Assembly: GCA_000310025.1 (NCBI GenBank) | Contig: FN649734.1 | Span: forward strand, 4,109,024-4,158,428 | DNA from: Ectocarpus siliculosus | Taxonomy: Eukaryota > Sar > Phaeophyceae > Ectocarpales > Ectocarpaceae | Reading direction: 5' to 3' | DNA length: 49,405 bases | In this document: piece by piece, positions 19,300-44,419 of the stretch | Numbering within the stretch: position 1 is the stretch's first letter | Layout: every line of letters starts with the position of its first letter | Position numbers and translations under genes: made by a program | The notes under the pieces: generated by a model | The model's input: the letters and a program-made list of their open reading frames with translations, nothing else | Database searches by the model: none | Told to the model about the DNA's origin: nothing

Positions 19300-21400
19300 A
19301 CGGCTCAAGTGGGAAGGCAGCTTTGCACTTGCACCCAGGGATGGAACTGTCTGCACGATCGAATCAGCAGGCGTCGTTCGCTCTTTTTCTTACATTTCAG
19401 AAATTCCGCAAGACCGCCGAATTTTCTGTGCGTGGTATGTATCGCCGCATGGTAGCTGAGACTAGCGTGCTTGAATGAAATTATATTTGTACGCTCAGCA
19501 GCCGAATAACCAGCTTTTTCAGTTGTTGAAGCTGCAGACTTATCTGCGTGTAGTCGTGCGTCAATGCCAGGAGACTTGAGACTTATCGAGGGAGGTGTTG
19601 AATTCATCTTTGCCAAAAGGATCGGTCTTTTTTCACGAGAAACAAAAGCGGGGTTGCGGCAGACGGACCATGCATGTCTTGACTTCTTTAACTATCTGCA
19701 ATGGCGCTGTGTCGCGTCGTGGTTAGGGGTAGCAAGGGCAAAGGGAACGCGGTAGGCGGTAAGCGCGTCGGGCATGAGGGGAGTCTGGGAAGGGCGAAAA
19801 GCCCAGGAAGTAAATATTCTGCTTTAGACCCCGAGGCCTGCTGTTAGCAGCGCAAGATCGAGCGAGACATACATGCGAGTGCACCAAGGGCGCACAAAAA
19901 AATATAAAAAAATAATTTTTTATACCTGGGCCGTTTAATCATTCCAAATTGTTGTTCCAAAGTTTCCAAATATTTTTAGTCAAATACAGTATCCCAAATA
20001 GACTACTAATTTTTCGGCCCGGAACGCCGAAAACATTCCGAGAACTACCTAGTCGCAGGCTATTTCAGCGGTCCCCTGCGATGTCGGTTAGCAAAACAAA
20101 AATTGTCTCTTATAAAATCTACAAATTTAAAAAAAGACAATACTATTTGTACTACAGCACACACAGCTCTAGTCTACATCGACTAGTCACCGTGTAATGG
20201 TATTTGACCCCTTCCTTCAGAATCAATCACCTTTGAGCTGTGTGGAACTCTCTTGTCCGACCACAGTAGCAGGTTGTTGTTGCTTTCCGTTGTCCTCTCT
20301 CTCTTGATTAACGCTTTCCAAGCCAACTCACAATATCCCACGCACACACGATCATAGATCGCCTGTACGCACACACTGAACAGAAGGGCACATGTCTCGG
20401 CATAAAGCCCTGATCTAGCATGACGTCACGTCTTAGCATCCGACGGCGCCAAATAACCATGATCAACCACGATCAATCACATGTCTACTCCAAATACCAT
20501 CACAATAGCCCACCCTGAGTGGACGTAGATGCAGATACAGAAGCAAACCTCGGAGGGACTCTAGTCAATCAAGAGGATTGCGGGATGGATCGAAGATACG
20601 ACAACTCAAAACCCTCACCCGCACCTCTCCGTTAACCAAACCAAATAAGCGGAACCAAGAAAGAAGAAAACACAGAACAAACCGGGGCGGCAAAGTCGGC
20701 GGATAAAATCGGGAAAAGGCACATGGGTGCGAAAAATAACCAAAACATCCGAACCGAAAAGACCGTAACACGAAGTAACGAAATCGTGAAGAGAAAATCA
20801 CAAACGATCTCGCAGGAATGAACCGATCGAATACGCAATCAAGTAAGCCAAAACCTTACGGGAAGGGGGGCTACGATGCGATCGAGTTCCGAAATGCAAA
20901 CATAAATAATAAGAAACGAAAACCGAGCCGGCAAAGGATCAAACGATATGGAAAACCGTTAGGGGTCGACCAAAATCGAGAAAAGCAGGGAAAGAGGGGG
21001 TTTCCGGGAACGCAAACAACGGCCAAAGAAAAGGACAGGAACCAACGCCAAAAACAACGTTCGCATGTCACGATACAACGTGCTTGCGATCGGGGTGGGG
21101 CGAGGAAAACAATTCTACTTGTACGTCAAGGCCAATTGCATGAAGAAAAATGCTTTAGAAAGTAGCAAGATCGAACACGTTGGTTGGCCGTGGCATGCAA
21201 TAGAAGCACTGGCGGAACGTTGGACCACAAAATACGCAAAGCAAACCATAGGGGGGGGGAGTTAAACGATGCACCAAATTTGGGCGTCACCGCAACTAAT
21301 GACGACCTAGGTCGCATTGAAAAATAGGGAAAGGGGAGCGAAAACTTTCGACAACCGACCGAGCAGTGACAAACGGGGCGAGGAAGTACGCAACACCAAA
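19300..21400. other. No gene recognised
   Basis: Contains the fragment of the 212-bp repeat (19825-19890) and the TTCCAAA cluster (19941-19978). A purine-rich tract (20560-21300) has only short low-complexity ORFs. The last part may be the degraded 3' end of the gypsy element, but I could not identify a 3' LTR. Confidence 0.35.
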
Positions 21401-21699: not shown

Positions 21700-22584
21700 T
21701 CAGGCATCTATAGCCGTACCACGCGACTCGTCTACATTGCGCAAGATACCTCGCATGAAGGGACTACTTCGGTGCAGCTGAAGGCACCAAGAGCCACAAA
21801 CAGCTCCCAAAGCTGTCGTGTAGCGCGAAGGAGAGAGGGTGATCTTGACAGGTCCAGGGTCATCCAGGAAGCGAACGAAGAAGACGTTTGTAGTTGGAGT
21901 GTGTCCGGAGATTTTCCCTAGCCACCATAGAGCGTCTTGAGCCTTGTACCAGAAGTGTGCGCCAACAGGCAGCACGGTGTTGCGAAAACGGCGGGCCCAA
22001 ACATCGCGGGGAACATATTCGTACCCGGGCGACGAGGACCGCTCGTCTTTGATGCGAGACAGTTCACGTTCCGCTGCGCCAATGCGCATGCGACGATACA
22101 GACGGTTAGTCTGCCGGTGTTGGTCGGGTGTACCAGCCCAATACAGAAGAATCTGTTTTCGGCAGTGTTGGAGGTCCATTTCTCGTTCCCACGAGGGCCG
22201 CAGAAGACCTTTCCAGTGGGTCTCGTACATGACTGTGATAACGCCGCCACGTCCTCGAACCGACTGGTGTCCCGTGATTTTCTCAACCTCGAGCCTGCGG
22301 ACAGGCGCCGAAACATCGTCCGCGGTAACATGGTACGGCGGAGACTTCGTCGTGTAGTTGTTGAGAACATACTGCGTGAGGCCTGCAGGCAAGAACCGAG
22401 GCATGTCGTCACTATCGTGTGGGTTCGCACACGGTTTGCAACGAGCGACAGAAACCCGGCGCTTGGCATCCACTCCGGGCATATCGGAGGGAAGATCCAA
22501 GAACAGGAGCTTGTCAGCCACCGGGCTGGCATCGGGAGCCTTGTTGCAAGGACCGACTGCTAGGATTTTAAAGGACCTGTCCAA
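21700..22584 (-). pseudogene. Gypsy integrase C-terminal region with chromodomain
   Basis: 294 codons. Residues about 98-150 read as a chromodomain: a GRGGVITVMYETHWKG core with aromatic residues, then SWEREMDL and ILLYW. This is the motif that chromovirus integrases use to target histone-marked chromatin. Residues about 190-280 hold a second conserved block of this element type (FWYKAQDALWWLGKI, VRFLDDPG, GAVCGSWCLQ, LRNVDESRG), which looks like a Tudor/chromo-barrel-like fold by sequence, though I cannot prove it. It is out of frame with the preceding integrase ORF by one base (25-nt overlap), which is why it is called a pseudogene part. Confidence 0.8.
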
Positions 22585-23230
22585 TTCAAGGACAGCTTCT
22601 TCTTGAGTACCTGGGAGTCAGCGTCCGCGCGGGCTTTGGAAGTGAGTTTGGCACCTTGGCGGATGGTAGCCAAATGGTTGTAGACCCACACCCAACCACC
22701 GGTAGCGAAAACGGGTAGTTTGTGTAAGGCATCAGACAGTTTCGAGTTCCGTCTTTCCATACGGGAAACTGTGAGTGCGTGTTGTTCACGCACTAGGTCG
22801 TAGGAGCGCCGTTGCCGGTCGGCGGCAAGGTTGCAATACTCGAGCTGATCGCGGGCAAGCGACTGGTGACCACGAGCGTAAATGTTGTCAAGAACGGTCA
22901 GTGGAAACCTGGGAAGGCGCGCCATATGCACCTCATTGGGCGCCAAGCCTGTTGCAGCGCTAACGGAGTTGTTGTACGCGAATTCAACATGAGGGAGATG
23001 AATGTCCCAATCAGCTTGTCGTTCGTTCACAACCATCGCCAGCATCTGGGCCATGGTGTCGTTCACGCGCTCAACTCCTCCGTTGCCGCTAGGGTGGTAC
23101 GCGCTCAAATCCCCAAACAGGCATGTATTTATTGACAAGGACGTCAGCTGTACCTTCAGCTGTGAACTCGACGTCAGTCACTGCGTACATATTTGCTCTC
23201 CGACTGAAACGGTCAGTGAATAGCAAAATA
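22560..23230 (-). pseudogene. Gypsy integrase, core C-terminal half
   Basis: Starts at the Helitron junction with ILLFTDRFSRRANMYAV and continues VLVNKYMPVWG. It then jumps, with a frame change near 23100, to AYHPSGNGGVERVNDTM, which carries the catalytic Glu, and on to WDIHLPHVEFAYNNS. The SDNG-type segment with the second catalytic Asp, normally 35 residues before the Glu, is absent. Roughly 150 bp have been deleted, so the DDE triad is broken. The family (rve, PF00665) normally inserts element cDNA into the genome. Confidence 0.85.
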
Positions 23231-25275: not shown

Positions 25276-25279
25276 GGTA

Positions 25280-26425
25280 AATATCGTGCATCCGGGCGCG
25301 TCTACGCAAGGGACTTCAAGGGACTGTGATCTCTAAAGAATCACGAAGCTCATTGGACGAGATTTCGGAGAACGTCAACTCGTAAATCATGACACATACT
25401 TGAAGTACAAGCATACATGCAGTACCTAGCACAGACTTTTTTTTGCAGCATGGTCTCATCTGTAGATAGATATCGACAGACTGTCCGTACTATCTATGTG
25501 GTATGTATGCGTTGTAGGTACAGTAGCATCCTGTCGCCTTCTCTAGCGTAAGCAACGCGAACTGGAGTATGTGCATCGTGTATTGTCACCGCGCGGATGG
25601 TTACGTACTACGTATGTATATGCCACACACACCCTCCAAGATGCACGTATTCTACAGCTCTGTAGTAAGGAAGATTGGACAAATGTAGATTGATCGTTGT
25701 TGTTGTGGTACGCCACAACAAAACTTTAGACTTAACTTGCCTTGTATTGAGCTTGAACATGCACGCAAATCTCACGGCATCATCAATTGCTGCAAGTGCT
25801 GCAAGGTTGGGGGCATAATATGTCTTCTGAAATACTGTGAACACTGCTGTTGTTGTACTGCTGTTGTTGTACTGCTGTTGTTGTATTGAAGGTGCTGCTG
25901 CTGTAGACTGCGCTATATCGTCTATGTACAGTTAAACAAGAGAGATGAACTTTTCGTGATACCACACCGTTCCATGGAAAATTGCTGCAAGTTAGTCAGA
26001 GGTTAGAAATTTGCTGGAAGTTTGTCTGTACAGAGTGAATGAAAGAGTGCACATTTCGTCGAATGTTCCGAAATTTCGTCTCCAAGTTAGTCAGAATTTA
26101 GTCTGTAAAGCGTGAAAACGTGCTCCAGCCCCACCGGCCCCACCCGATCACTTTCATTTTCGACATCCTCCCCTCTCATCCCCGCATCGACCTTCAGCTG
26201 CAACACAACATGAACGAACGCCCTCTCCCGTCGCTCCCCAGCAAAGCGAAAGTCCACCCAGTCAGAGAGTCGTAGTGGAGAGTCCCGCCGCCCTGAACAA
26301 AAGGCCGACACCAACTGGCCTTGCCCCGGGCCCGACTGCGACGACGGCGGTCACCTTTAGCTCGACGGTAAAGGCAAGTTTGCCCCTTGCGACCGTAACA
26401 ACAACCGCGACGAGGACACAGTTGT
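25280..26425. other. Helitron interior, mostly unassigned
   Basis: Contains a 15-bp ACTGCTGTTGTTGT repeat, three units at 25842-25886. A weak direct repeat (AAGTTAGTCAGA at 25989 and 26083) precedes a GC-rich stretch from about 26110. That stretch has a short protein-like reading (TNWPCPGPDCDDGGHL) in a frame different from the exon that follows, and is probably part of the captured gene in decay. Confidence 0.45.
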
Positions 26426-26427
26426 AG

Positions 26428-28057
26428 CGTATCCTGCACCATCCTCACCCCGTCGACAACTACCCCAAGCTGTGCCAGCTCTGCCTCACCCCGGTGGGAG
26501 GTACTCCTTCGCTCGGGATCCCAACCGAACAGGTCAACAGCCGCGGCTACAAAGGGAAAAGTAATTTCTCTCTTTAATTACAGTTAGCGCCCGCAATTAA
26601 GAAATATTTTGTTAAGAAATTGAGGCTCACTTTTTCACGAAAAATAAGAAAATAGGCTTAAGAACTAAGAAACATAGCTCAATCTGGGTCACACAGTAAG
26701 AAATGTCTCAATAAGAAACACAGCAGCGACTGCTGCCCTACTACATAAGAAACGAGGGGTTACGGGGGAGTGTGTCGAATAAGAAACAAACCCCACAGCT
26801 CTCTCGCTCTTTCCCCCTCTCCCCCTACCCCCCCCCCTTCCCATAGTGCATTATTATTAGATGTACGCCGAGGGGGGAGTGTTTTTTTTTGCGGCGCCCC
26901 CTCCGGCCCCCTGCGGGCTCTGCGCTCTGCCTTGCTGGCCGCTAAAGCTCTGATTTTCGTTGTTGGCTGTCAGCGTGCGGGTGAGGCATCATGCGGTGTT
27001 CATGTATTTGTTTAGTTTCAGCCCTCACTCATGAGGGGAGTACAAGACCTTGTAGCGATAGCAAGACGTTGCCGTTGAATACATTTCGCTTCTAGGGAGT
27101 GGCCTTACGTGCAGCCGTCGGTAGTGAGAATCGGGATTGAGTACGGGAGGCGAGGAAAGCAGAGAAATAAGAAATTGCCGATTTAAGAAATTCAGCAGGA
27201 TTTGGCTGCACCACAAAATAAGAAACATGATATATAAGAAACTGAACGACATACGCTGAGTTTATAGCCCACAATAAGAATTCGAGGCTGGACCTGAAAT
27301 GAGCGTTTCTTAATTGCGGGCGCTAACTGTACATCAAGTAATTCCGCCTGATATGTGCCCGAATGTTGTTCAGGTGTTGCATGAAGCCCTGACATGAAAC
27401 TTCATCGCAACCCCAACCGCTAAATCTCTCCACAACAATGCCCTTTTTGCTTGCTGCTGTTGTCAGAGTGGAATAATATCCACGCGGTGTGGCGTCTTTG
27501 CGCTGGTGCCAAGTCTTCGGGCGGCAAGAAGTTCAAGCACGTCACCGTCGCCCCCGCCAGCCTTATCGGGGTAAATCATGTGTACACCCGTTTACATCGG
27601 AACGTGATTGTGTAGTGAACAGTCGTGTGTGTGCGTAGTTACCTAGATATGGGTGCGCGGATGCATCCGACTGTTGCTGTAAATTAGTTTCCCATCTGTT
27701 ACAAAAGTAAATTACACCTTTTTTTTATGTAGTACAACCATGTGAAATTTATTCCTTATATTTTCCCCTGTCACCCATCCGATATCCACTGCAAAGGTGC
27801 ACTGCGAGTGTTCCGACGCAGCGACTAGCGAGGAAGACCTGGCCGACGGGTGCACGGGCGAGATCGTCGAGGACGACCTGATCATCAAGGATTGAGACTC
27901 CCCGCCGCTGCACTACCAGTGCGCACGCCGCCGGTGGAACCAGACCATCAACGAGATCCTGAACAAGACCGACGAGCACCGCGACCTGGGAACTACCCAC
28001 GACAAGGAGTCTTCCCAGCCCTCTGCCACCGTCCAGCCGCCCTCGCCGACCTCTAAA
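26428..28057 (+). pseudogene. Captured host gene fragment with three exons
   Basis: Three GC-rich exons in consistent phase: 26428-26560 (LCQLCLTPVGGTPSLGIPTE), 27467-27570 (WNNIHAVWRLCAGAKSSGGK, KHVTVAPASLIG) and 27797-28057 (VHCECSDAATSEEDLADG and QCARRRWNQTINEILNK). Donors are GTAATT, GTAAAT and GTAAGA; acceptors end TTGTCAG and TGCAAAG. The first join uses phase 1 and restores a Lys-Lys codon series. Cys pairs (CQLC, CEC) suggest metal binding, but the family is unknown to me. An in-frame TGA at 27893-27895 interrupts exon 3, and the region upstream is in another frame. It is therefore called a pseudogene, of the kind Helitrons carry. It lies antisense to the Helitron. Confidence 0.5.
26581..27329. 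mobile_element. Tc1/mariner-type MITE, 749 bp
   Basis: Perfect 24-bp terminal inverted repeats begin CAGTTAGCGCCCGCAATTAA (26581-26604 and 27306-27329), flanked on both sides by TA, the target duplication of Tc1/mariner elements. The CAGT start is typical of that superfamily. No transposase is encoded. The subterminal regions carry about 14 copies of TAAGAAA, nine between 26597 and 26790 and five between 27165 and 27280. All are in the same orientation; only the right terminal repeat carries the reverse. The GC-rich centre (26800-27160) includes a segment shared with 8995-9060. The element sits in the first intron of the captured gene fragment, 20 bp after the donor. Confidence 0.88.
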
Positions 28058-28176
28058 GTAAGACGCGTGTTTTCATTTCAGAAACAAGTAGTAAACGTCT
28101 CAAGTTATTCAAGGCACATTTGTTGCCACCTTCAACTGGTTTTCGCCAACTACCAATAGAGTAAAGATATCACCCT

Positions 28177-29190
28177 ATGTCTGACAATCATCGATGTCGG
28201 CCGACGCCAATTCATCGGGTAACTCGTTCAGCAGCCGCATCTCAAAATCGCCAAACACGATCACATACTGCACGTACCAAAGTTCCACACCCAGCCAGAG
28301 TAACACACCCTCAAGGAACGTACAAACAACTCCAACTCGACGACCACCTTCAGCTCGTCGAAATACCCAACGAAGATCGCTCACCCAACCACGGACGACG
28401 CCTGAAACTCGAACACCACAAACCTGTCCGGATAACGCGCAACACGTAGAACTAGCAAGAACTCGCAGACGAAGACGTGCTGAAATATTAACGGAACGTC
28501 GACGTCGCAATGCAAACAATAACACACCACACGACTCAGACCCTGAACTCGATATGATACGTCAACATTTTAGCCAAATGAGGAATCGTGCACCAAGGTT
28601 ACCGGCACCCAGCCTAGACAGCCATCGCGGTTATGCTAATGACCAAATCCGCCTTGGAGTGCAAGACATTGGCTCGCAATCATTCGACTTCCCCTCGGCA
28701 CCTTTCGAGCTAAAACACACGACGGATGGATTTGGATGATCCACAAAATATCACATGTTCTCACTGCAATGCTCAACTTTGGAAAAAAGAAAAGAGATTA
28801 AATTGTTGTAACAAAGGCAAGTCCTGTATCCATCCTCTCAAATCTATCCCGCACCATCTTATGGCGCTGTTTGAAACTACTAAATTCATTTCTGCTCAAA
28901 GAAGGTACAACGGGTTTTTCGGATTTACTGCATTAGGCGCAGGCGGTATTAAAAAAAGGACATGGACTGAACCGCCAGCCCCTTCAATGCTCACCTTGCA
29001 TGGACGTGCTTACCGCCGCATATTTGACCTCCAACAACACTATGAGAACTATTCCGTGTCGAAGAAATCATCGCAGCTAAACGAATTTTTGATGCTCAGA
29101 TAAACATCCACTTTCATGCCTCCACATTACCTCCTCCCCAACAACCTCTTTCTTCTGCTTTAAATTTACGTTATACGGTATCATCTAGGC
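28177..29190 (+). pseudogene. Helitron Rep N-terminal fragment
   Basis: Two overlapping frames: 28194-28739 (Arg/Ser/Thr-rich leader ending GVQDIGSQSF) and 28726-29103. The second begins with a Cys cluster (CSHCNAQLWKKEKRLNCC) and continues KGKSCIHPL, LMALFETT, SAQRRYNGFFGFTALGAGG and LHGRAYRRI, followed by a YENYS-type motif. This Cys cluster plus the RxYNxxxxFTSLGA-like motif is the conserved N-terminal region of eukaryotic Helitron replication proteins. Beyond 29100 the reading continues in another frame (NIHFHASTLPPPQQPLS) and then stops. The HUH nuclease and helicase parts are missing. The fragment is on the opposite strand to the surrounding Helitron, so it is probably a remnant of another element. 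Confidence 0.75.
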
Positions 29191-29199
29191 ATTATGACA

Positions 29200-30120
29200 C
29201 GTACACGCTCTTACATCCATCTCCCCAATAATTGCATTCTGCCGCCAGCGCAGGCACCCTACCGCCTGCACCATCACCGACATCATCGCGGCCATCACCA
29301 TCGCGCTTCAACATTAAGAAGCTCGAGACCTGACAAGGCTGCAAACGAAACCATACCTTCCGCAGTGGTAATCGGCAATAACCACCAGGACCGCAAGGGG
29401 CAACGATGACCCGAGGCGGGAGGCGTCAACTCTTTCTCCGTCAACTAGCGCCCACTTTGTCTGAATGTTGTAGGTGTTCGACTCCTTTCACAATGTGAGG
29501 GATACCGCATATCGGCGTCATTGGAGGAGGACATCGGAGAAGGGCGCGACATTAGAGCGGATCGACACTGAAGAAGTTAGAATATGACCATTCGAGCGGG
29601 ACGACACCGAAAAAGTTAGAATAATAGCTCCAGAACATTAGAGGGGGGCATTAGAAAAAGGCACGACACTGAAGAAGTTCGAATTTGAGAGCTAGGCGGC
29701 AACACACCATCAACTACCGGCAATACCGTCGAACAATTGCAGTGTTCGTTCTTTCTTTGGCCCCTTTGGGGAGGATATTGGCCACCGCAAAGCCACTTAG
29801 AGAACGTTTCCTGAGAGTGTGACTACGTTCTTACCGGCGCAAGAATGGGGAGGCGACCGTAGCTTACATCTCCTTTTCGTCCGCACCGGACGAAGCTAGA
29901 CAACAATTCACGTACACGCGACTCTTTTGGCTTCATGTTACACCGGGAACGACACATTTCTCGGATACAACGCGAAAATCTTCACGCCGTTCATTCGGTC
30001 ATCTGCGGCTTCATGCCCTTGGTGTGCTGTGCACAGCCTTCACACCTTCCCTTTAAGCCTACTGCTGAGGACGAGGGCGCCTCTGCGCCCGAAGTCCGGA
30101 GCCCTTGTATATATAACATG
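29200..30120. other. Helitron 5' region, no gene
   Basis: 29550-29690 holds three diverged copies of a CGACAC-GAA-AAGTTAGAAT word about 40-65 bp apart. The rest, up to the 5' TC at 30121, has no recognisable ORF. A TATATATA-like word (TTATATATAC on the minus strand) lies within 15 bp of the Helitron 5' end. Confidence 0.45.
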
Positions 30121-30121
30121 A

Positions 30122-30984
30122 TACGAGAAACCTCGCGGAGTTGTGGGAAGCGGACCAAAATAGTCGACGCTAATCGCGACCCCTGGTGCCGAAGGCAGAG
30201 GGATCGTGAGATTCGGCCAGCGAATAGTCTGGCGTGCAGTGTTGCGGGCCTGACATTTCAAACATCGCCGAATCCACCAACGAGTACTGATACTCATCCC
30301 AATCCACCAGTAAAACCTCTCAAGCAAGCTGAGCGTGCGAGCGGTACCAAGGTGGCAGAGGGCGTTGGCATGAAAAGCTTGCATGACCCAAGGTCGCATT
30401 AACATGGGCACGTAAATACGAGTGGGTTCGTCATTCAACAGACGTGCAGCTCGTCCTCCGGGACGGTCAGAAGAGACCGGGGGCTTGGTATTCCTTCGTA
30501 CCAAGAGGCAAAGGCCATCGTCAGTGACGAGGCGTCCTTTATCTGCAAGCTCTCGAATATCCTCCAACGATGGTCTATGCCTGGAGTGATATGACACTCT
30601 GGCAAAGAAATCGACAGGTAGACTCTGAGGGCGTTTGAGGAGAATGTAGCGGATGGTGGCTTCACACACCGGCTCTTTCTGCTGTTCCCGCGCCCAATCG
30701 GCACGCGTGTAGCGTTCGACGGACTCACGGAATTCTAACTCTGCAGGATTGAGGACCATGGAATCCACTGCGGGCGTTGCCTTACCAGCTGCAGCAGCAG
30801 GTTGTGACAAACCCAACAGAGGACCCGTAGGGGCGTCGGTAACCGTCTCCGGCGGCGCTATGGGCACCGTTGGGACAGGTTCGACAGCAGGCTCAGGCGT
30901 GGTGGCAGCTGGTGTCACTCGTGTTTGACGACGAGAAGCGCCTGCTGCGGCAGCTGCACGCGGAGCGTGTGGGGGGATCGACAA
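30122..30984 (-). pseudogene. Gypsy integrase, N-terminal half
   Basis: After a Pro/Ala-rich linker (residues 1-75) comes the integrase HHCC zinc-binding domain: HANALCHLG with two His, then RFYWWIGM and CLKC. The core then starts with VDYFGPLP, carrying the first catalytic Asp. It is cut after GFSY by the Helitron; the codons that follow in the same frame belong to the Helitron. The continuation is at 23230 downward. The frame is +1 relative to the RT ORF, which it overlaps by 92 nt. Confidence 0.85.
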
Positions 30985-33172
30985 ATAAATCAGGACCGAA
31001 ACCGTAGTTTACATCGGGTTGAGGCTGACCCGCAGCATCCGCGGTTCTGCGACGCGTACGAGTAGAGATCAGTTCCGACGGATCAATACGATGCGGTTGC
31101 AACCGAGAGGTCGAAGGCGGCGGCAATGAGTCGGCGGCATCCAAACGATCAGAGTGGGAGCCGGCGTCGACAGTTGCGGTCGCAGGAGACACGACAGGGG
31201 GCAACCGAGAGTTATCGTCGGCGGCCTGTGTGTCGTGGACAGGGAGCGCAAATGCAGCTGTATCCGCGTGGGGTCGCGCAGACGGTCCGTAAACCGTGGC
31301 GGTGTCCCTATACAATGGTCTCCTCGGAGACACAACAGGAGAAGCTGAAGACCGGAGTGCCGGCACAGCGCCCTGTTTTTTCTGGGTTGCAGCGGAAATA
31401 ACCTCAGGCACAGCAAATACGGAGTGGTCGGTGCAAGACAATGCACGATCATCCGCAAGGTGTCGCAAAGGTCCTCGCGCATTGACGTACGGAAAAACAC
31501 GAGCGACAAATTCTCCTGCAGGAGCATCAAGGTCGTCAATCCTCATTCGAGGCCCGTGTTTGCGAATATCCGCACAATCATCGGAAGTGAGGGGTAGCCC
31601 ACCCAAAGCGGCGTTCTCGCTCGGGGGCGCCAGCCCACCCAAACCAACGCCAGGTGTGGTTTGTCCGGGTGATGCGTGACCTGTCGCTCGGATCAGATAC
31701 AAACCAACGTCTTCTGGGGACGTCAAACGACTGTTACCGTTGATGTCGTAGGCAGTAGGCTCAATCGGCAGACGAGACAGCATGTCAGCGTTTCCGTTGG
31801 AGGCACCTCGTCGGTACTCCAACGTGTAGCTGTATGCTTCAAGGAACTCAATCCAGCGTTGGACGCGTGGGTTGTGCTCGCTGATTTTTGACAAATTTTC
31901 CAGCGCCTTATTGTCGGAATAGATGCGGAAGTGTGTGCCACGAAGGTATTCGCGGAGACGCTTGATCGCCCATACAACGGCTCCTGCTTCGAGATCGAGA
32001 GCGGTCCAGTTGCGTTCAGCGTCGAGCGTGGCTTTGCTGATGAAAACGATCGGCCGTACCGAGCCGTCTTTCTGCTCTTGCTCCAGCGCGGCGCCCAGAC
32101 CGTCGGAGCTGGCGTCACAGCAAAGACGTAAAGGGCGTGTACCGTCCGCGATAGCGCCCCAATCAGGAAACACTAAAATGGGCGGTTTGGCGAGCTCAGC
32201 CAGTAGGCTGCGAACATTTGTTTCCATGTCGCTCGTGAAAGCGAAGGGAACACCTTTTTTGAGCAAGTGCGTAATGGACTTCACACGCTTGGCCATGTCT
32301 CTGAGGAAACGTCGGTAGTAGCTCAGACCACCCATGAGTGACCTGAGTTGCTTGACGGTCGTAGGCATGGGCATACCTGCCAGGGCGGCTACTTTACGGG
32401 CGTTGGGGAGGATACCTTTCGAAGATATGGTGTGCCCCAAGAAGTCAGCCTTGGTGGTACCGATGGTGGCTTTCGAGGGAGAAAGTTGGAGGTCGTACTT
32501 TCTCAACCGTTCGAAGAGCGTGCGCATATTACAGACATGCTGCAGCGGGCCTTCGTCAAAAACAACGACGTCATCGTGGTATGCCTCGACTCCATCGAGT
32601 CCTTTGATTACTTCGTTGATCACTTTTACAAAGTGGCCTGCGGATTGGCTAGCACCCATCGGCATGCGGAGCCATTCGAACAAACGAGTGGGGGTCGCAA
32701 AAACCGTAAGGGGGATAGTGTCCTTGTGGACAGTGATCTGGTGGAAGGAACCCGTGAAATCGAATAGCGAGAAAATCGAACCTCTGTTGAGTTTCGTTAG
32801 AATCTCGTCGACTCGGGAGATGTGAAGTTGACCAAAGCTGCTGATATGGTTCAACTTTCTGTAGTTAACCGTGATGCGTATTCCACCAGACTTCTTTGGT
32901 ATAACCACGATGGGGCTGGAATAAGGAGAGGTCCAGTGCTGAATTAGGCCAGCAGCTAGATACTGGTCCAAAATGGTATCGACTTGCTTTGCAACCAAAT
33001 GATTCATACGGTATGGTTTGGACGTCACAGGGGGACAATCCGGAGGTACTTTGATCTCAAACGGCATCAGGGAACAGGACCCTAAATCCGTCGAGGATGT
33101 CTTGGAAATCATGCAAAAGATCACCAAGTTCTGTCGTGACCTCTGGTGACCAACCAGGACCGTGTAAATCAA
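30893..33172 (-). CDS. Gypsy reverse transcriptase-RNase H
   Basis: 759 codons without internal stop. RT motifs: IVVIPKKSGG (about residue 88), VNYRKLNHI, FSLFDFTGSFHQI with the first catalytic Asp (about 138), LRMPMGASQSAGHF, and AYHDDVVVF at about 197-205. This catalytic box reads YHDD rather than the usual Y[ILV]DD. Next come KADFLGH and LMGGLSYYRRFL. RNase H follows from about 345 (RLCCDASSDGLGAAL, KATLDAERNWTALDLEAGAV, YSDNKAL, NADMLSRLP). The long C-terminal extension (residues 480-759) contains MRIDDLDAPAGEFVARV, conserved in this element type, and low-complexity linkers. The first 116 nt overlap ORF B in a +1 frame; homology resumes at the SSTDLGSCSLMPFEI segment. Confidence 0.92.
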   Translation of the reverse strand: MIYTVLVGHQRSRQNLVIFCMISKTSSTDLGSCSLMPFEIKVPPDCPPVTSKPYRMNHLVAKQVDTILDQYLAAGLIQHWTSPYSSPIVVIPKKSGGIRITVNYRKLNHISSFGQLHISRVDEILTKLNRGSIFSLFDFTGSFHQITVHKDTIPLTVFATPTRLFEWLRMPMGASQSAGHFVKVINEVIKGLDGVEAYHDDVVVFDEGPLQHVCNMRTLFERLRKYDLQLSPSKATIGTTKADFLGHTISSKGILPNARKVAALAGMPMPTTVKQLRSLMGGLSYYRRFLRDMAKRVKSITHLLKKGVPFAFTSDMETNVRSLLAELAKPPILVFPDWGAIADGTRPLRLCCDASSDGLGAALEQEQKDGSVRPIVFISKATLDAERNWTALDLEAGAVVWAIKRLREYLRGTHFRIYSDNKALENLSKISEHNPRVQRWIEFLEAYSYTLEYRRGASNGNADMLSRLPIEPTAYDINGNSRLTSPEDVGLYLIRATGHASPGQTTPGVGLGGLAPPSENAALGGLPLTSDDCADIRKHGPRMRIDDLDAPAGEFVARVFPYVNARGPLRHLADDRALSCTDHSVFAVPEVISAATQKKQGAVPALRSSASPVVSPRRPLYRDTATVYGPSARPHADTAAFALPVHDTQAADDNSRLPPVVSPATATVDAGSHSDRLDAADSLPPPSTSRLQPHRIDPSELISTRTRRRTADAAGQPQPDVNYGFGPDLFVDPPTRSACSCRSRRFSSSNTSDTSCHHA

Positions 33173-35588
33173 ACTTAACCAACTTCACGTGAGGCGGCGA
33201 GCGATTCCACAATGACTCAAAGCTAACTCTCTGATCAGCGCTCAACCGCTCCATCACATGCTGTGGTGGCGGCGAGGGCGAAGTGTGAGCGGGGGCAGGG
33301 GCCGCAGGGGGTGATTTCCCTGCGTCCGGCATAGGAGGATCGGTGGATCGTAGGTTGTGCACGAAGGGATCGTGGCAACGCACCTGCGGATCGACGGTCC
33401 TGTCCGCGTTATCCTCGGTAGAACCCAAAATAGGTCCAGGCACCGAACATGAAGTATCAGCTTCGTCACTAAACTGTTGTTCTAAATGGTCTACCGGGAC
33501 GCGCATCAGCGGGGCGGCAGCAGTACCGAGCAAGTCTCCTGGCTCAAGTTCTGCAGCACCCGCGAGCGGCACAAACTGACGTCCGTCGGAGACAAAGATT
33601 TCTTCGTTCGACGAAACATCAGGCAACATGTCGACAAGGTATTGACCGATCAGAGCCGGTGTACCGTTGGAACGCACCAAGTTGACTTCAATCATTTGGT
33701 GGTCGTCTGACAATGAAGTACCCGTTGGCCCTGCATAACGGAGCTGGAATTGGTCCGCCGGGGCTGTGAAATCGGGCACATACGCCACCGCACCAGAATC
33801 ATCCTGGTGGGCAAGCGTATATTCACCAAAAACGCGATTGTCCAGTGGCCTCGGAGGCAACATACGGTACGTGCGAGTGTTAAATCGCATGAAACTATCG
33901 CGTCCCAATAGAATGGGAAACTGCATGGTGTTTGCAGGGACGATGTGCGCCCAAACGGCAAGAGAAGCCGAAGGCGTATCACCGTGGAAAAAATTCACAC
34001 TCAGACGGACTGTATCAGACGTCTGAAGAGACTCGAATTTACCAAAACCTCCCCAAGAACGTGAGTTACCGTGCGAGATGCAAGCCTCTGAGATGGCTCC
34101 CATGGCTTTGAGGGTACCGACAGCGTTGCTGTTGATGAACGTGGCCGGTGATCCAGAATCGAGCAGAGCGGCGCAACCATATTGTGATTTGGCTGGCCCA
34201 GCGTGGATTTTGACTCGAGTCGTAAATGAAGCGTCGTCAACTGTAACAACACCACCTACGAGGCAAGGACCATGCTCAGCGAGCAACGGTACACGATCTT
34301 CCTGATGATACTCAGCGGACGTAACCGCGAGAACTTCAGCGCTGTGATCCCTTGGAACATGCGCTGATTTTATGCGGTAACCTGACGACGGGGCGGCCTC
34401 CTCGGCGGCAGCCGTCGAAATACGCTCTTGCGTTGCAGGGTTAACCTCATGTATTGTATTCCGGAGCTGAGCGTCGGACGAAACTTGTGGTGGAAGTGTC
34501 GGCGTCGGCGCGTGCTCTCGGAGTAGGTCTCGAACAACCTGCAGGCTTTTGCCAAGCAGATTGGAGCCCCGCCATAAAGAGGGTTGGATTGCAGCAGGAT
34601 CATCCGCGCGATGTCCAATGCCCCATATGGCATCGAATGGGCTAGCTTCGACGAGCATTTTGTCGCCGGTGCCCAAACGATGTTGTCGCATAGCGGGATT
34701 TTGCGAAAATTTGTAGTAGGAGGCGACACGCACCACGTTTTCACGCTCGCGCTCCCAAACAGCTTCGTCAAACCCTTTAACTTGGCGTCCGTAACGCTTA
34801 TGTTTTATCGGGTCAGAAACACGCATAATCCGCCGCAACGTATCTTGGTCGCCAAAGAGACGAGCCTTGGCAGCCGCGAAGAATTGTTCTTCACAAGAGT
34901 ATTCCACACCATCTACAGTAAAGATGGAGGGCGTCCATTGCGAGAAAACCGACGGGGCTTGCCAGAACAACACCATGTCAGGTGTGCAGTACTCCTTGCT
35001 CGGATCAAACGCTGGTGGTGAACACCTGGCGTCGGTCGGAGGAGGAGGGTAGATACGAATACCAGCTTTAGCGGAGGAGGGGGATGTCTGTTTCCCCAAG
35101 TCCTCTACTCTACCAACAGCGCAACCCGGTGGGGGTGTATAGTCTGTAGTGCTTTCGCTAGAATCCATCACGTTGGAGACATGACGGACCTCCCTTGACG
35201 AGGGCCGCGAGTTTTTCGCTGTTTGTTCAGCGAGGGGCGCAATTGGAGCGTCCTCCGAATACGGTGTTGTCAGCACCTCCGTGGTCGCGGTTGGGGACCG
35301 CTCAGTTTTGGTACTCCGCGAATCGCAAACCACGGGAAATCGACGCGTATTTCTTTCAACGCAATCGGTCATACTCGCTTCACCGTGCGGCGAGTGACTT
35401 TTATTACCGTCTCGAGTTCCATCGGCTGTATCGCCGCAGGCTGTCGATGACCCGTACGCAGTGGACATGTCCAAAGCATCGCTCGAGGTGGCGAAACCCG
35501 GCGACACTTCATGTATTGTCGACAACGTAGGTGTCCTAACGGTCTTCCACGAGGACGTCTGAGCGGACCTCTTGGGCATGCTCGACAA
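33057..35588 (-). CDS. Gypsy polyprotein ORF with NADAR (YbiA-like) domain and aspartic protease
   Basis: 843 codons. Residues 1-200 are Ser/Thr/Pro-rich without known domain. Residues about 203-360 match the NADAR/YbiA (DUF1768) family closely: FSQWTPSIFTVDGVEYSCEE, QFFAAAKARLFGD, GRQVKGFDEAVW, YKFSQNPAMR, TGDKMLVEASPFDAIWGIG and GSNLLGKSL. These include the Glu of the EE/EH motif, the Asp-x-x-Trp-Gly-x-Gly box and the Asn-x-Leu-Gly box. NADAR proteins act on NAD-derived or ADP-ribosylated nucleotides. Residues about 443-590 form a retropepsin: ALLDSGSPATFIN with the catalytic Asp-Ser-Gly at about 477, and FPILLGRDSF as the second conserved hydrophobic-Gly strand. No CCHC zinc knuckle or capsid was seen. 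It overlaps ORF A by 53 nt and the RT ORF by 116 nt, both in +1 frames. Confidence 0.88.
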   Translation of the reverse strand: MSSMPKRSAQTSSWKTVRTPTLSTIHEVSPGFATSSDALDMSTAYGSSTACGDTADGTRDGNKSHSPHGEASMTDCVERNTRRFPVVCDSRSTKTERSPTATTEVLTTPYSEDAPIAPLAEQTAKNSRPSSREVRHVSNVMDSSESTTDYTPPPGCAVGRVEDLGKQTSPSSAKAGIRIYPPPPTDARCSPPAFDPSKEYCTPDMVLFWQAPSVFSQWTPSIFTVDGVEYSCEEQFFAAAKARLFGDQDTLRRIMRVSDPIKHKRYGRQVKGFDEAVWERERENVVRVASYYKFSQNPAMRQHRLGTGDKMLVEASPFDAIWGIGHRADDPAAIQPSLWRGSNLLGKSLQVVRDLLREHAPTPTLPPQVSSDAQLRNTIHEVNPATQERISTAAAEEAAPSSGYRIKSAHVPRDHSAEVLAVTSAEYHQEDRVPLLAEHGPCLVGGVVTVDDASFTTRVKIHAGPAKSQYGCAALLDSGSPATFINSNAVGTLKAMGAISEACISHGNSRSWGGFGKFESLQTSDTVRLSVNFFHGDTPSASLAVWAHIVPANTMQFPILLGRDSFMRFNTRTYRMLPPRPLDNRVFGEYTLAHQDDSGAVAYVPDFTAPADQFQLRYAGPTGTSLSDDHQMIEVNLVRSNGTPALIGQYLVDMLPDVSSNEEIFVSDGRQFVPLAGAAELEPGDLLGTAAAPLMRVPVDHLEQQFSDEADTSCSVPGPILGSTEDNADRTVDPQVRCHDPFVHNLRSTDPPMPDAGKSPPAAPAPAHTSPSPPPQHVMERLSADQRVSFESLWNRSPPHVKLVKFDLHGPGWSPEVTTELGDLLHDFQDILDGFRVLFPDAV

Positions 35589-36216
35589 TTTCCGACCTTC
35601 CGTACCCGCACCTCAAACCGACCCTTGCATTCGTGTAGCCAACACGTAATGGTTCAGGCTGGTTCGCGGGCGGCAACGTGGTGTACTCGGGCGTTGTGCA
35701 AGCTGCTCGAGCTGTGTTTAAGCTCGGGGAGCCGCCTTCAAGACAGGTCGCTCCTTGAGTTCCTAACCTTGGGGTATATTTACTGACGACAGCGCTGAAG
35801 CTGCCGTGTGTGCAAACTGCTCGAGCTGTGTTAAAACTCGGGGAGCCGCCTTCAAGACAGGTCGCTCCTTGAGTTCCTAACCTTGGGGTATATTTACTGA
35901 CGACAGCGATGAAGCTGCCGTGTGTGCAAGCTGCTCGAGCTGTGTTAAAACTCGGGGAGCCGCCTTCAAGACAGGTCACTTCTTGAGTTCCTAACCTTGG
36001 GTTATATGCATTGACGACAGCGCTGGAGCTGCCGTGATCGGGAGTGTGGGCTACACCATCTTCGCCCGATGAGGCCAAAGCACTACCGCTTGTAGCGGAA
36101 GTGTCGGTTGTAGGAACACGAGTGGTACACTCGACCGTACCTACTATACGCGCATCCTGCGACACATATCTAGCTGCTCCCTGTTTTGCCATCGGCGGGT
36201 CGGGGAGTAACGACAA
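35536..36216 (-). CDS. Gypsy ORF A with 38-residue repeats
   Basis: 226 codons from an ATG at 36216. The middle consists of three tandem 38-residue repeats with the core GGSPSFNTARA and AVVSKYTPRLGTQ, each containing one or two Cys. No Gag capsid, matrix or zinc-knuckle motif is evident. Its position at the 5' end of the polyprotein genes is that of Gag, so it may be a divergent Gag, an N-terminal extension or repeat-expanded junk. It ends inside the next ORF (53-nt overlap, +1 frame). Confidence 0.55.
   Translation of the reverse strand: MSLLPDPPMAKQGAARYVSQDARIVGTVECTTRVPTTDTSATSGSALASSGEDGVAHTPDHGSSSAVVNAYNPRLGTQEVTCLEGGSPSFNTARAACTHGSFIAVVSKYTPRLGTQGATCLEGGSPSFNTARAVCTHGSFSAVVSKYTPRLGTQGATCLEGGSPSLNTARAACTTPEYTTLPPANQPEPLRVGYTNARVGLRCGYGRSEIVEHAQEVRSDVLVEDR
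35703..36035 (-). repeat. 114-bp tandem repeat, three copies, coding
   Basis: Units at 35703, 35817 and 35931 on the plus strand start CTGCTCGAGCTGTGTT. They are over 90 percent identical. The period is an exact multiple of three, so ORF A stays open, which suggests expansion while the frame was under selection or recently. Confidence 0.9.
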
Positions 36217-36295
36217 GCCGCCGTTGGGCTGTCAGTTACTGTTTGAGTATTTGCGGCCTACGCCACTTATTTATCGAGTGAGACTGTTTCGGTGA

Positions 36296-36725: not shown

Positions 36726-38261
36726 CTACAGCTTCTCCGGCAAATTCATCAACTTGCGCCGGTGGTACTGCAGACTGGCCCTGCTAAGGGCCTTGGTTAG
36801 GAGGTCCGTGTGTTGCTCCGTTGTCGGAACGAACTTGACCGAAATATCCCCCGACCTAAACAATCCGCGGATAAAATGAAACCTCACGTCGATGTGTTTC
36901 GTGCGGCCTGAGCTGAGGGGGTTCTGCACCAACGCTATGGCCCCCTGGTTGTCCTCAAGGACCTGGATGCTGCTACCACTGGTCTCTGGGGCAACAAACG
37001 AAAACACAGCACGCACAAACAACGCTTCCTTGACGCCCTCCCCGGCAGCAATGTACTCGGCTTCCGTCGAAGACAAAGACACGATGCTCTGTGTCTTGCT
37101 ACCATGGCTGACTACGGTACCTCCAACCGTTGCTGCCAACCCTGACACCGAACGCCTATCCTCCGTGTCGGCGTAGCTAGCGTCTACGTACACGGCAAGC
37201 CCTAACCCCGATCCCCGTTGGTAGGTGATGCCGAGGTCCCTCGTCTGTTTTAGGTAGCCGAGGATCTTCTGTATCGCGTCCCAGTGCCTCTTCGCCGGGG
37301 TGTGGGCGTGGCGCGCTACCGCACGCACGGCGAACGATACGTCTGGACGCGAGAACGTCGACACCCACATCATGCTGCCGATGGCCTCCCTCACCGGCCA
37401 CTCCCCTCCCTTCTCGTCATCTCGCTTCGGTCCTAGGTCGGCACCGGGGGTAGCGGGGATGTGGGAGGTCGATTGCACATCAAAGCGTTTCACCATGCTG
37501 TCAATGTACGCGGTTTGGGAGATTCTAAGAGTCCCAGCCTCTACATCTCTCTCGATGGCACACCCGTCAAACCATTCACACTCTCCAAGGTTTTTGGTGG
37601 GAAATTTCTTGTTGAGAGAAGCAAGCAACTCCTCACAATCCTCGTCAGACCCAGCCACCAAAATGTCATCCACATAGATCACGATAATCATCACCACGAC
37701 TTTGTCTACCATCTTGCGGAAAACACACGGGTCCGCTTTGCACTGTTCGAACCCGTTCTCGACTAGCGTATCAGCAGCGTGGTACCCCCACTGCCTACCG
37801 CTCTGCTTCAGACCATAAATCGCACGCTCAGCCTTAACAATTTTATGCGATTTGTCCCCGCACCCAGCGGAGAGCTTCAGGAAAACCTCCTCGTCTAGCG
37901 TGGCGCGTGTGTACGCCTGTTTCACATCCCAGTGATTGAGGTTCATGCCCTTCTCGTTTGCTACCGCAAGCATCAGCTTAATGGATGCGGATGAGGGGCA
38001 AGGGGAAGACGAATGGAAATAATCGACGTTCGGGATTTGCGAAAACCCCCTAGCAACCAGACGCGCTTTGAACTTGTCTATCTTCCCTTCCTTGTTGGTC
38101 TTCCAACTAAAACACCACTTTGAGCTCACAGGCCTGCGCCCCTCTGGCGTGCCGTGTACGAATGAAAACGTCCCCGTGCCCAAGTGCCCTTCAAATTCTT
38201 CCCTCATGGCCTGTTCCCATCCCTCTCTGTACACAGACTTGGCAACACCGGCTACGGTCAT
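36726..38261 (-). CDS. Copia reverse transcriptase-RNase H
   Basis: 511 codons, uninterrupted. RT begins around WEQAMREEF and continues SSKWCFSWKTNKEGKIDKFK, ARLVARGFSQ, then VDYFHSSSPCPSSASIK, LNHWDVKQAYTRA with the first catalytic Asp, AIYGLKQSGRQWG and the catalytic box IYVDDILVAGS. RNase H follows: AVYVDASYADTEDRRSVSG, SLSSTEAEYIAA, VLEDNQGAIAL, TKHIDVRFHFIR and TDLLTKAL. It ends at a stop, with the LTR candidate downstream. Intact catalytic residues indicate a relatively recent copy despite the missing 5' half. Confidence 0.93.
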   Translation of the reverse strand: MTVAGVAKSVYREGWEQAMREEFEGHLGTGTFSFVHGTPEGRRPVSSKWCFSWKTNKEGKIDKFKARLVARGFSQIPNVDYFHSSSPCPSSASIKLMLAVANEKGMNLNHWDVKQAYTRATLDEEVFLKLSAGCGDKSHKIVKAERAIYGLKQSGRQWGYHAADTLVENGFEQCKADPCVFRKMVDKVVVMIIVIYVDDILVAGSDEDCEELLASLNKKFPTKNLGECEWFDGCAIERDVEAGTLRISQTAYIDSMVKRFDVQSTSHIPATPGADLGPKRDDEKGGEWPVREAIGSMMWVSTFSRPDVSFAVRAVARHAHTPAKRHWDAIQKILGYLKQTRDLGITYQRGSGLGLAVYVDASYADTEDRRSVSGLAATVGGTVVSHGSKTQSIVSLSSTEAEYIAAGEGVKEALFVRAVFSFVAPETSGSSIQVLEDNQGAIALVQNPLSSGRTKHIDVRFHFIRGLFRSGDISVKFVPTTEQHTDLLTKALSRASLQYHRRKLMNLPEKL

Positions 38262-41889: not shown

Positions 41890-43085
41890 TCACTGTTTTG
41901 GTCTGCGCCAACATGCACAAAAGCGTCATTTCTCGCGTTTTTCCTCTTTTCGGACAAAACTACAGCAGCACCGGCCCCAGACACAACATTCACCACTACT
42001 GCTGCGTGTGTCCACTGTTATGTGCTCCCACAAGATGTCGTGCGTTCTACACTGACTGCTGTCTCCCACCATGTAGTGTGCAAACTCGCTGCAATACAGC
42101 AGCAGTACTGCTGTGTGCAGGCGTGGGTCTGTGGATGAAAGCTTGTCGCGATGATGGCAGCGACCCCAGCGCCTCCTCCGCCACCAGACAACAAACAACA
42201 TTGCACACTAATGTACAGCTGTGTGTGCAGTGTGCTCCCACACTGCTGTGTGCTCACACACTGACTGCTGTGTGCTGCCACACACTGGGGTTTCGACACG
42301 CTGGTGTCAGCAAGGAGCGAAACAACACCAACAACGGCCTTCATGTGTGTCACGCGTTCTATAAACTCACCGTTTTGGCCTGCGCCAACATGCAAAATCT
42401 TTTCGGACAAAACTACTACAGCAGCACCGGCCCCAGACACAACATTCACCACTACTGCTGCGTGTGTCCACTGCTGTTATGTGCTCCCACAAGATGTCGT
42501 GCGTCCACACTGACTGCTGTCTCCCACCATGTAACGTGCAATCTCGCTGCAAGCGTTCTATGTTTTGGTCTGCGCCAACATACTACATACGCAAAAATAG
42601 CGTCATTTCTCGCGTTTTTCCTCTTTTCGGACAAAACTACAGCAGCAGTACCGGCCCCAGACACAACATTCACCACCACTGCTGCGTGTGTCCACTGCTG
42701 TTATGTGCTCCCACAAGATGTCGTGCGTTCTACACTGACTGCTGTCTCCCACCTGTAGCGTGCAATCTCGCTGCAACACAGCAGTAGTACTTACTTACTG
42801 CTGTATGCAGGCGTCTGGATGAAAAAGCTTGTTGTCGCGATGATGGCAGCGACCCCAGCGCCTCCGCCACCAGACAACAAACAACATTGCACGCTAATGT
42901 ACAGCTGTGTGTGCTGTGTGCCCCCACACTGCTGTGTGCTCACACACTGACTGCTGTGTGCTGCCAAACACTGGGGTGTCGACACGCTGGTGACAGCAAG
43001 GAGCGAAACAACACCAACAACGGCCTTCATGTGTGTCACGCGTTCTAAACTCATCATCACCGTTTGTTTGGTCTGCGCCAACATG
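41890..43085 (+). repeat. CTG-rich tandem array, 449- and 223-bp units
   Basis: The word GGACAAAACTACAGCAGCA marks unit starts at 41957, 42406 and 42629. The first and third units are full length (about 450 bp). The second is a 223-bp short form lacking the second half (the block from GGCGTGGGTCTG to AACGGCCTTCATGTGTGTCA). Units are over 90 percent identical. The array keeps a 302-codon ORF open on plus and others on minus, but the translations are Cys/His/Thr runs from CTG/CAC repeats and look non-coding. Confidence 0.8.
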
Positions 43086-44104
43086 CTTTTCCATTAGCAA
43101 GGGGGAACACAGTGACCCGTGTCCCTTGCAAAATATCATTGCTGTAACCAATTCTTCTAATCTCGGATCCCAAATGACGTCATATGACCCAGTGAAATTT
43201 CTTCTAAAACTTAGACCCAATGACGTCACATGACCAGGTGAAAATACAACACCTCGACGGCCTCCAAATCTACAGTTGAGCCCATGGTCGGGAAGCCCCT
43301 TTCGCACATTCCCAGTTTGATCCCTACCGCAAGCCTCCCATTGTGTTCGGAGCAGCCGGCATTCGGATCCCTGCCGTGGTACCACATATATAGCCCCTCC
43401 GATAGGACTTGAGGCAAGGCGGGAAGGCTGTATCGGGTTTCGTGCTAAGGTGCTCTCCCATATTGACCTCGTGGCTGACACACATCGTCTTCGCTGCTGA
43501 TCGCTGTACATCCAGGTGGGTAATTTCTACGTGTTGTATTCTTCGCCACTCCGTAACATGTCCACACCACTGCTCCACACGGAGAGACCAACTGCTACTC
43601 GCTGCTGCTGCTGACCTTCATGACGGATGCTCTACGACGTGATTACGACATGGTTGCGACAAGATATCTCGACAAACCGCTTTGAGGAACACCAGGGAAG
43701 TTGACAACAACCACCACATAAGATGTATATCATTTGGAAACTTTCCATGCTCTACTGATGGTGTTTACCAACACCCAACATAACAAGAAACAAGCTAACA
43801 TGATACAACCTGAATGGTATGCCCTACCTACCATGCACCAGGTATACCATTCTCATCTACTGCTGTATAAACATCCCTGATACGTTACCCCAAAGGATCA
43901 AAAACGATTTGTAAATTCAAAAAAACGGCGGGAAACACCTACTGTCCGTGAAATTCAAAAACCTGTAGATAAACGAGTGATGTAGGGCTGGTGATGTACT
44001 GCTGTAGATTTTGTTCCACCTTCCATGAATTTTACAATATTATTCCTAATATGTCTAATAAACCAGCAAGCTGTCAATAGACACTGCGCCGTGTCCCCTG
44101 TGAA
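43086..44104. other. Segment inserted between array parts
   Basis: Separates the main CTG-rich array from its fragment at 44420. It contains two TGACGTCA palindromes (43175 and 43221) in similar contexts (AATGACGTCA-ATGACC-AG-TGAAA), a CATATATAGCCCC TATA-like word (43384) and a hairpin GAATGGTATGCC/GGTATACCATTC (about 43811-43852). It could hold a solo LTR or a promoter, but no borders could be proven. Confidence 0.4.
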
Positions 44105-44417: not shown

Positions 44418-44419
44418 GC

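Follow-up and report, generated by a model that had tools for sequence, protein, structure and literature searches.

What does a NADAR (YbiA-like) domain do inside the polyprotein of a Ty3/gypsy retrotransposon? The question is raised by a locus in a 49,405-nucleotide stretch of the Ectocarpus siliculosus genome (contig FN649734.1), referred to below as the window. An earlier note on this DNA had recognised the domain, proposed that it might remove host-applied ADP-ribose marks or manipulate host NAD signalling, and was aware of no described retrotransposon family of this kind. That statement has been superseded. A NADAR-bearing Ty3/gypsy lineage of Ectocarpus (e.g., Gypsy-12_Ec32) was described in Genome Biology in September 2025 (PMC12477816), and the fusion itself is thus already known; identity of the present elements with the families of that paper is presumed from the passages describing them. 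The main text of the paper contains neither 'readthrough' nor 'stop codon', and 'purifying selection' occurs once, on another matter. Relative to its passages on these elements, what is added here are selection and active-site data, an in-frame UGA-C and myxobacterial relatives, along with NADAR in other retroelement-like metagenomic polyproteins, one of them with a confirmed reverse transcriptase (RT). Among the literature matches listed, no other description of NADAR in retroelements was found.

The copy in the window

The window NADAR matches the PF08719 profile over positions 2-163 of 163 with 153.5 bits (cut-off 35.1; E=7.7e-45), and corresponds to C9:4143541-4143990 in a profile search of the genome. 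As the earlier note had read it, a full-length domain lies in an 843-codon ORF (35588-33057) and is followed by a DSG site (34160-34152); the profile match places the domain at residues 208-357. The note had read RT, RNase H and integrase in the next ORF. The first two are indeed there (33172-30893); the integrase is found elsewhere, in 30984-30040 and, past an insertion, in 23138-22560 and 22584-21700. The features of this copy are given below, where L021 is a copy 97.7% identical to that of the window over 5.8 kb.

20192..20508 (-): 3' LTR (96% identity with the C14 copy's 5' LTR)
21700..22584 (-): ORF whose C-terminus resembles a chromodomain (PF00385 E=1.4e-4, 22.1 bits, cut-off 25.1)
22560..23138 (-): ORF with C-terminal integrase part, collinear with L021
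23231..30120 (no strand): insertion of about 6.9 kb splitting the integrase (L021 aligns down to 30121 and again from 23230)
30040..30984 (-): ORF with integrase zinc-binding domain (H2C2; PF17921 2.6e-13), ending inside the insertion
30893..33172 (-): ORF with RT and RNase H (RVT_1 1.1e-21; RT_RNaseH 3e-31)
33057..35588 (-): ORF of 843 codons holding the N-terminal part of Pol, NADAR and a retropepsin-like region (translation)
34280-33891 (-): protease (PR) region (tblastn)
34152..34160 (-): DSG aspartic protease site, 3' of NADAR (motif seen by eye in the translation)
34518..34967 (-): NADAR domain, residues 208-357 of the 843-codon ORF (PF08719 E=7.7e-45)
35536..36216 (-): 226-codon ORF of the Pol N-terminus, overlapping the NADAR ORF in a different frame
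35695..36036 (-): tandem repeat of 114 nt (38 codons), three times, in the Pol N-terminus (repeat search)
36232..36234 (-): UGA, with C as the next base, where relatives have their Gag/Pol boundary (window sequence, L021 alignment, stop survey)

The window copy is a broken and incomplete member of a large Ty3/gypsy family, because its frame is interrupted, its integrase is split by the insertion, and its similarity to L021 ends at the Gag stop (36239). The Pol frame of L021 is open, and there the Pol N-terminal region and NADAR form one 2175-codon frame, whereas two frames are needed in the window; the 114 nt repeat is present three times in the window and twice in L021. A search of the window at E 1e-10 detected nothing resembling the part of L021 upstream of the Gag stop, and just past 36239 lies a Ty1/copia RT ORF (RVT_2 2.1e-49, 38261-36729). 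A repeat search of window positions 16000-40000 yielded no LTR repeats of at least 80 nt, because only the 3' LTR is present there. Pfam gave no protease match in the NADAR ORF and no match of its own for the ORF at 22560..23138. The chromodomain (PF00385) scores below cut-off both here and in L021 (0.016).

A lineage throughout the genome

In the genome searched (189 Mb, 492 contigs), the 150 scored NADAR matches (best of 230 candidates) all lie above the PF08719 cut-off, and an RT of the lineage follows on the same strand within 15 kb in 123 of them. The spacing is 1-3.5 kb in 122 of the 123 pairs, with a median of 2010 bp. A survey from the other side, with the L021 RT as query, found NADAR upstream in 124 of the 150 best RT matches (of 439 candidates). 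There are also NADAR matches without RT (27/150) and RT matches without NADAR (26/150). Both lists stop at 150 matches and include fragments; host NADAR genes or elements devoid of NADAR may be among the unpaired matches. The two outcomes on which the earlier note would have abandoned its reading were no PF08719 match and absence of the domain from all other copies; the searches found a strong match, and the lineage's RT downstream of 123/150 NADAR matches.

Thirty-five loci from the 150 NADAR matches were inspected by sequence. L009-L028 are the 20 best-scoring matches and are biased toward the HMM; L033-L046 were picked because their frames stay open over a long stretch, and in two cases a low score was a further reason. 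The order NADAR, protease region, RT was seen by tblastn in 35/35 copies (34 loci and the window), some with stops or frame changes. The Pol frames of L021 and L022 (2175 and 2015 codons) contain NADAR, RT, RNase H, H2C2 and rve, although the rve match of L022 (29.0 bits) is below the 32.6 cut-off. Thus RT, RNase H and then integrase (H2C2, rve) follow one another in a single Pol in these two loci; in the window they are spread over several ORFs. These two copies also have an LTR at each end (3 mismatches over 315 nt in one, 1 over 299 nt in the other), and such near-identical LTRs suggest that both are recent insertions. The exact LTR ends are unsure; with the LTR shifted by a few bases, the 5-base AAGGG could flank the C476 copy, and the C14 copy has no clear target-site duplication.

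Active site of the domain

The window NADAR is similar to the Phytophthora nicotianae NADAR (8bau; phmmer E 1.4e-16) and to Escherichia coli YbiA (2b3w; 2.4e-9). Residues of the ADP-ribose site named in the passages of PMC11543638 on that structure were transferred through the phmmer alignment to 8bau and counted in 31 clean copies; L033 and L034, with a stretch in another frame within NADAR, were left out. The substrate site is intact: 12 of the 13 mapped positions are invariant in 31/31 copies. Eleven of these (E43, K50, K75, G78, R79, V81, W89, R93, E125, D130 and W133) are identical to the crystallised oomycete protein, in which G78 and V81 make backbone contacts (PMC11543638). At the Y84 position, the adenine-stacking Tyr of P. 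nicotianae NADAR, all 31 have Phe. The D86 position is not conserved.

The passages on catalysis in PMC11125620 and PMC11543638 give the YbiA family a catalytic Glu, versus the Asp of BC4488 and the His of phage. By its residues the element NADAR belongs to the YbiA family, since Glu occurs at the E125 position, together with E43 and K50, in 31/31 clean copies. PADLOC gives a match to the candidate defence family PDC-M42C (8.3e-36).

Selection

The 35 loci gave codon sets of 33 NADAR rows (L009 and L020 were dropped for a stop), 32 PR rows and 32 RT rows. Between subfamilies, synonymous sites are near or at saturation (pS 0.65-0.88) and NADAR is 51-78% identical, with dN of 0.17-0.50, compared to 0.12-0.51 for PR and 0.06-0.39 for RT in those pairs that had one. 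For L035 and L037, the subfamily pair nearest to each other, omega is 0.054 (NADAR), 0.077 (PR) and 0.036 (RT), with dS too high for these values to be exact. Judged by these codon comparisons, the domain is under long-term purifying selection in the Gypsy lineage, because it has stayed this similar while synonymous sites became saturated. The dN/dS comparison across copies that the earlier note proposed therefore shows constraint between subfamilies.

Omega within four groups, from sums over 29 of the 33 NADAR rows and fewer PR and RT rows in some groups, is 0.62, 0.24, 0.16 and 0.31 for NADAR, 0.45, 0.13, 0.13 and 0.68 for PR, and 0.36, 0.48, 0.39 and 0.16 for RT. The NADAR value of 0.62, the highest, is that of the window's own very recent subfamily (PR 0.45, RT 0.36), where divergence is low and dead copies are included. 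Conserved catalytic residues under strong constraint favour a working enzyme.

The Gag/Pol junction

Going upstream from NADAR, the first in-frame stop closes a long frame of 333 to at least 708 codons in 8 of 21 long loci. That frame is taken as Gag; in L021 this putative Gag frame has no Pfam match. The stop is TGA-C in 8/8 loci, which represent four subfamily types (L020, L022 and L027, with the other five loci belonging to the window's subfamily). The remaining 13 of the 21, including the window, have a different stop, closer to NADAR. UGA-C is a leaky stop context. RNA structure downstream of the UGA was significant in none of 5 folds (z +0.29 to -1.79), and a conserved structure as stimulator of readthrough was rejected for lack of a significant fold.

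Origin of the domain

A quick tree of 94 rows was drawn from 131 database proteins and seven of our own copies, and a second tree was made with 72 rows, from which P0005, whose end branch was 3.06, was omitted together with 21 other database rows. P0007, P0008 and P0010 were assigned to Gypsy once the first tree was known. The Gypsy NADARs of the 72-row tree, together with three short database proteins, fall into a single clade (14 rows, support 100/95), and this clade sits among stand-alone, mostly unnamed NADARs. A protein of Ectocarpus sp. CCAP 1310/34 (P0004) groups with L035 inside it.

Among the best 80 of 580 relatives in a collection of bacteria and archaea, the closest that carry a bacterial name come from Nannocystis and a Polyangia MAG, with 56-57% identity. 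For the Ectocarpus Gypsy NADARs, blastp relatives were almost only bacterial according to the relevant passage of PMC12477816, and the YbiA of the myxobacterium Chondromyces crocatus is described in PMC11125620 as an antitoxin against the ADP-ribosyltransferase (ART) YarT. The donor was most likely a bacterium. The donor may instead have been a eukaryote, because P0076 and P0077, two of the 120 listed stand-alone relatives (51-52% identity), come from eukaryote transcriptomes.

What the domain may do

The reading we tentatively prefer, while granting it somewhat less than an even chance, is that NADAR is a captured eraser of ADP-ribose on the element's own nucleic acid, packaged with Gag-Pol as a counter-defence. 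In a Ty3/gypsy lineage, apparently brown-algal, a stand-alone NADAR gene of the YbiA type would have been acquired in a single event, most likely from a bacterial donor, and retained on the N-terminal side of Pol, before the protease, where it serves as an enzyme. NADAR would most likely be made only in the Gag-Pol product, through readthrough of the UGA-C. Its position in Pol behind a probably leaky stop argues for packaging in low copy number with RT and integrase. The domain would most likely work as an N-glycosidase on element RNA or cDNA, taking off ADP-ribose that is probably linked to guanine, and so would undo modification by host ADP-ribosyltransferases. Such action on nucleic acid fits the conserved site and is argued from related enzymes, since bacterial, phage and oomycete NADARs are active on guanine-ADPr in the experiments described in PMC11543638 and PMC11125620.

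Host writers were also searched for. Four partial PARP matches in the genome (best 4.5e-6) count for the eraser, although they are short and two of the four contain a stop, which counts against it. An exon-wise search found no match to DarT, also counted against the eraser, and none to KptA. No ART of these algae is known to modify the nucleic acid of retroelements. Further points against the eraser are the omega of 0.62 for NADAR in the window subfamily, the variation at D86 and the lack of a significant fold at the UGA.

NADAR could be a functionless passenger or, an outcome the earlier note allowed for, one chance insertion of a host gene. The broken window copy, the omega of 0.62 in its subfamily, and the best-scored NADAR and RT matches that lack a partner (27/150 and 26/150) could be read this way. 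It is nevertheless highly improbable and was rejected on the selection data and the 123/150 pairing of NADAR with RT: several diverged subfamilies carry the domain at the same position, in one clade and under purifying selection. A retained domain need not be catalytic, and NADAR might bind ADP-ribose or RNA, or serve as a scaffold, within Pol. There is a precedent for a NADAR protein in an RNA complex, the nematode SNA-3 with CBC-ARS2, in the part of PMC9303266 devoted to it; yet SNA-3 was impaired by mutation of the homologous residues, an effect in which its authors did not exclude folding. In the Gypsy lineage the E125, E43, K50 and D130 positions are invariant in 31/31 clean copies with synonymous sites near saturation, and a purely binding module seems improbable.

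If the enzyme is active, its substrate could be small. NADARs also act on riboflavin-pathway intermediates (passages of PMC9303266 and PMC9503650), so an N-glycosidase working on small NAD or ADP-ribose derivatives or on by-products of RNA processing, rather than on ADP-ribosylated nucleic acid, is conceivable; it would protect the element against immune signals that diffuse in the host, or aid the processing of the RNA intermediate. The same conserved site would serve, a role in RNA-intermediate processing is what PMC12477816 proposes for these NADARs where it discusses them, and PMC9503650 posits in one passage a possible preference of viral NADARs for ADPr derivatives in soluble form. That paper, however, favours macromolecular ADPr for the NADARs of eukaryotic RNA viruses, and a low-copy Pol domain beside RT would suit nucleic acid better than a diffusible metabolite. 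We consider a small substrate rather unlikely. Readthrough has its own competitor, in which ribosomes enter the Pol frame by reinitiating or at an internal start and NADAR-Pol is a separate product. An in-frame ATG 39 nt past the stop codon in L021, of the window subfamily, and the insignificant RNA structure after the stop are compatible with it. However, the stop-proximal ATG of L022 is out of frame, and single in-frame UGA-C stops recur in four subfamily types, which makes a separate product unlikely.

A captured ADP-ribose eraser held by selection in a mobile element would imply that the host marks retroelement RNA or cDNA in a way not yet known. Whether nucleic-acid ADP-ribosylation serves eukaryotes as a defence could then be tested directly in algae like Ectocarpus. 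Active-site invariance and selection, which favour a working enzyme, are absent from the passages of PMC12477816 on these elements.

NADAR in other large polyproteins

A search for large proteins with a Gypsy-type NADAR found six. Four of these carry RT/RNase H of the Gypsy lineage's kind, one being the protein of Ectocarpus sp. CCAP 1310/34. Of the other two, P0005 (3333 aa) combines NADAR with a C5 DNA methylase and P0006 (2839 aa) combines it with an RT (RVT_1 2.1e-15; hhalign 94% to Gypsy RT). The P0006 RT is probably not of the Gypsy kind, an assignment made from the absence of RT_RNaseH and integrase matches in P0006 and not from an RT tree. A second search, with P0006 as query, found six proteins including P0006 itself, the others being P0129-P0131 (ENA) and two Haliotis proteins. 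P0130 has SET and a weak phage-integrase match (4.8e-4), and the phage-integrase match of P0129 (0.011) is below cut-off. Searches of viral contigs gave either five loci, on IMG/VR contigs of 20-360 kb, or no match.

P0006, P0129, P0130 and P0131 cluster in the quick tree, with a long-branch warning attached. A separate origin of the P0006-type NADARs was not upheld, as one clade with Gypsy is not rejected (p-AU 0.289). Tyrosine-recombinase retroelements were likewise dropped as proven second carriers, the RT and recombinase motifs having been seen by eye only. In profile comparison, the RT-like stretches of P0129 and P0130 showed no match to the RT of P0006 or of Gypsy (probabilities 0.2-0.3 percent). 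By these profile matches, P0006 is the only apparently non-Gypsy NADAR polyprotein with a confirmed RT.

It is possible, if doubtful, that retroelements of unrelated classes acquired NADAR on repeated occasions, which would mark a general anti-retroelement ADP-ribosylation of nucleic acid in algae, protists and molluscs. Such a reading takes in the Gypsy lineage, the published oyster Tx1 LINEs, and the metagenomic polyproteins P0006, P0005, P0129 and P0130, whose partner domains are an RT of another kind (P0006) or SET, cytosine-methylase and weak tyrosine-recombinase domains (P0005, P0129, P0130). If true, retroelements would carry the eraser of a general, undiscovered ADP-ribosylation defence.

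Comparison with known systems

No difference is shown from the Ectocarpus NADAR Gypsy lineage of PMC12477816, with which the present elements were compared through its descriptive passages. The Tx1 LINEs of Crassostrea gigas, in the passage of that paper that treats them, likewise encode a NADAR-like domain in a retroelement; unlike the Gypsy lineage, the element is a LINE and the NADAR is divergent and placed in ORF1. P. nicotianae NADAR and E. coli YbiA share sequence similarity and the YbiA-type catalytic Glu with the Gypsy domain; they are stand-alone cellular enzymes, whereas the Gypsy NADAR has Phe for Tyr and has not kept D86. In positive-strand RNA viruses (nidoviruses and others) NADAR is likewise embedded in a polyprotein, that of the replicase, according to the section of PMC9503650 concerned. 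In contrast to the Gypsy lineage, these viruses have no reverse transcription. Capture of an enzyme acting on nucleic acid is also known from the cytosine methyltransferases in retrotransposons of Symbiodinium and Klebsormidium (PMC5890265, in which NADAR has no occurrence), and the KnitGypsy-Dnmt3 methyltransferase is reported there to be kept at Ka/Ks < 0.2. As those passages describe them, the captured methyltransferases write methylation; in contrast, the Gypsy NADAR putatively removes ADP-ribose.

Repeats and Insertions

Some element copies of the NADAR Ty3/gypsy lineage carry tandem repeats. The window holds the following features, within its broken copy or outside it:

23231-30120, insertion of about 6.9 kb inside the integrase
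35695-36036, 38-codon tandem repeat at the Pol N-terminus, three copies
36726-38261, minus strand, Ty1/copia RT ORF (RVT_2, 2.1e-49)
41942-44676, interleaved direct-repeat families D2, D4, D5 and D6, 72-224 nt

The 38-codon repeat is present in three copies in the window but in two in each of four other genomic copies (L013, L018, L021 and L026), so that repeat number differs among element copies. Tandem repeats of 53 or 50 nt are also found in the 3' part of elements (L021:9506-9829, L013:9500-9898, L018:9505-9822 and L022:307-606).

The one ORF of the integrase insertion that was compared with Pfam gave a best match at chance level (E 0.12). Near the insertion edge, 23545-23698 has an inverted second copy at 5706-5869 (86% identity). 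The Ty1/copia ORF adjoins the broken Gypsy copy on its upstream side, and the element to which it belongs is perhaps nested in that copy at the Gag stop; the sequence at its edge was not detected elsewhere in the window.

NADAR in Other Contexts

Two NADAR matches in the same genome were reported within open frames of 10887 codons (C3:3913787-3914242) and 6365 codons (C489:435177-435536), which are implausibly long and perhaps caused by runs of N.

Five very long metagenomic polyproteins contain NADAR. In P0005, P0006, P0129 and P0130 it is joined to a C5 DNA methylase, an RT, a SET domain or a weakly matched tyrosine-recombinase domain; in P0131 Pfam matches NADAR alone. Further motifs in these proteins, among them a stretch resembling OTU, were assigned by eye only; P0005, also read by eye, has Ala at the position of the catalytic Glu.

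Giant NADAR proteins occur in the abalones Haliotis asinina (P0127, 4719 aa) and H. rufescens (P0128, 4240 aa). P0127 scores 574 bits against a query of 191 residues, which suggests several NADAR copies.
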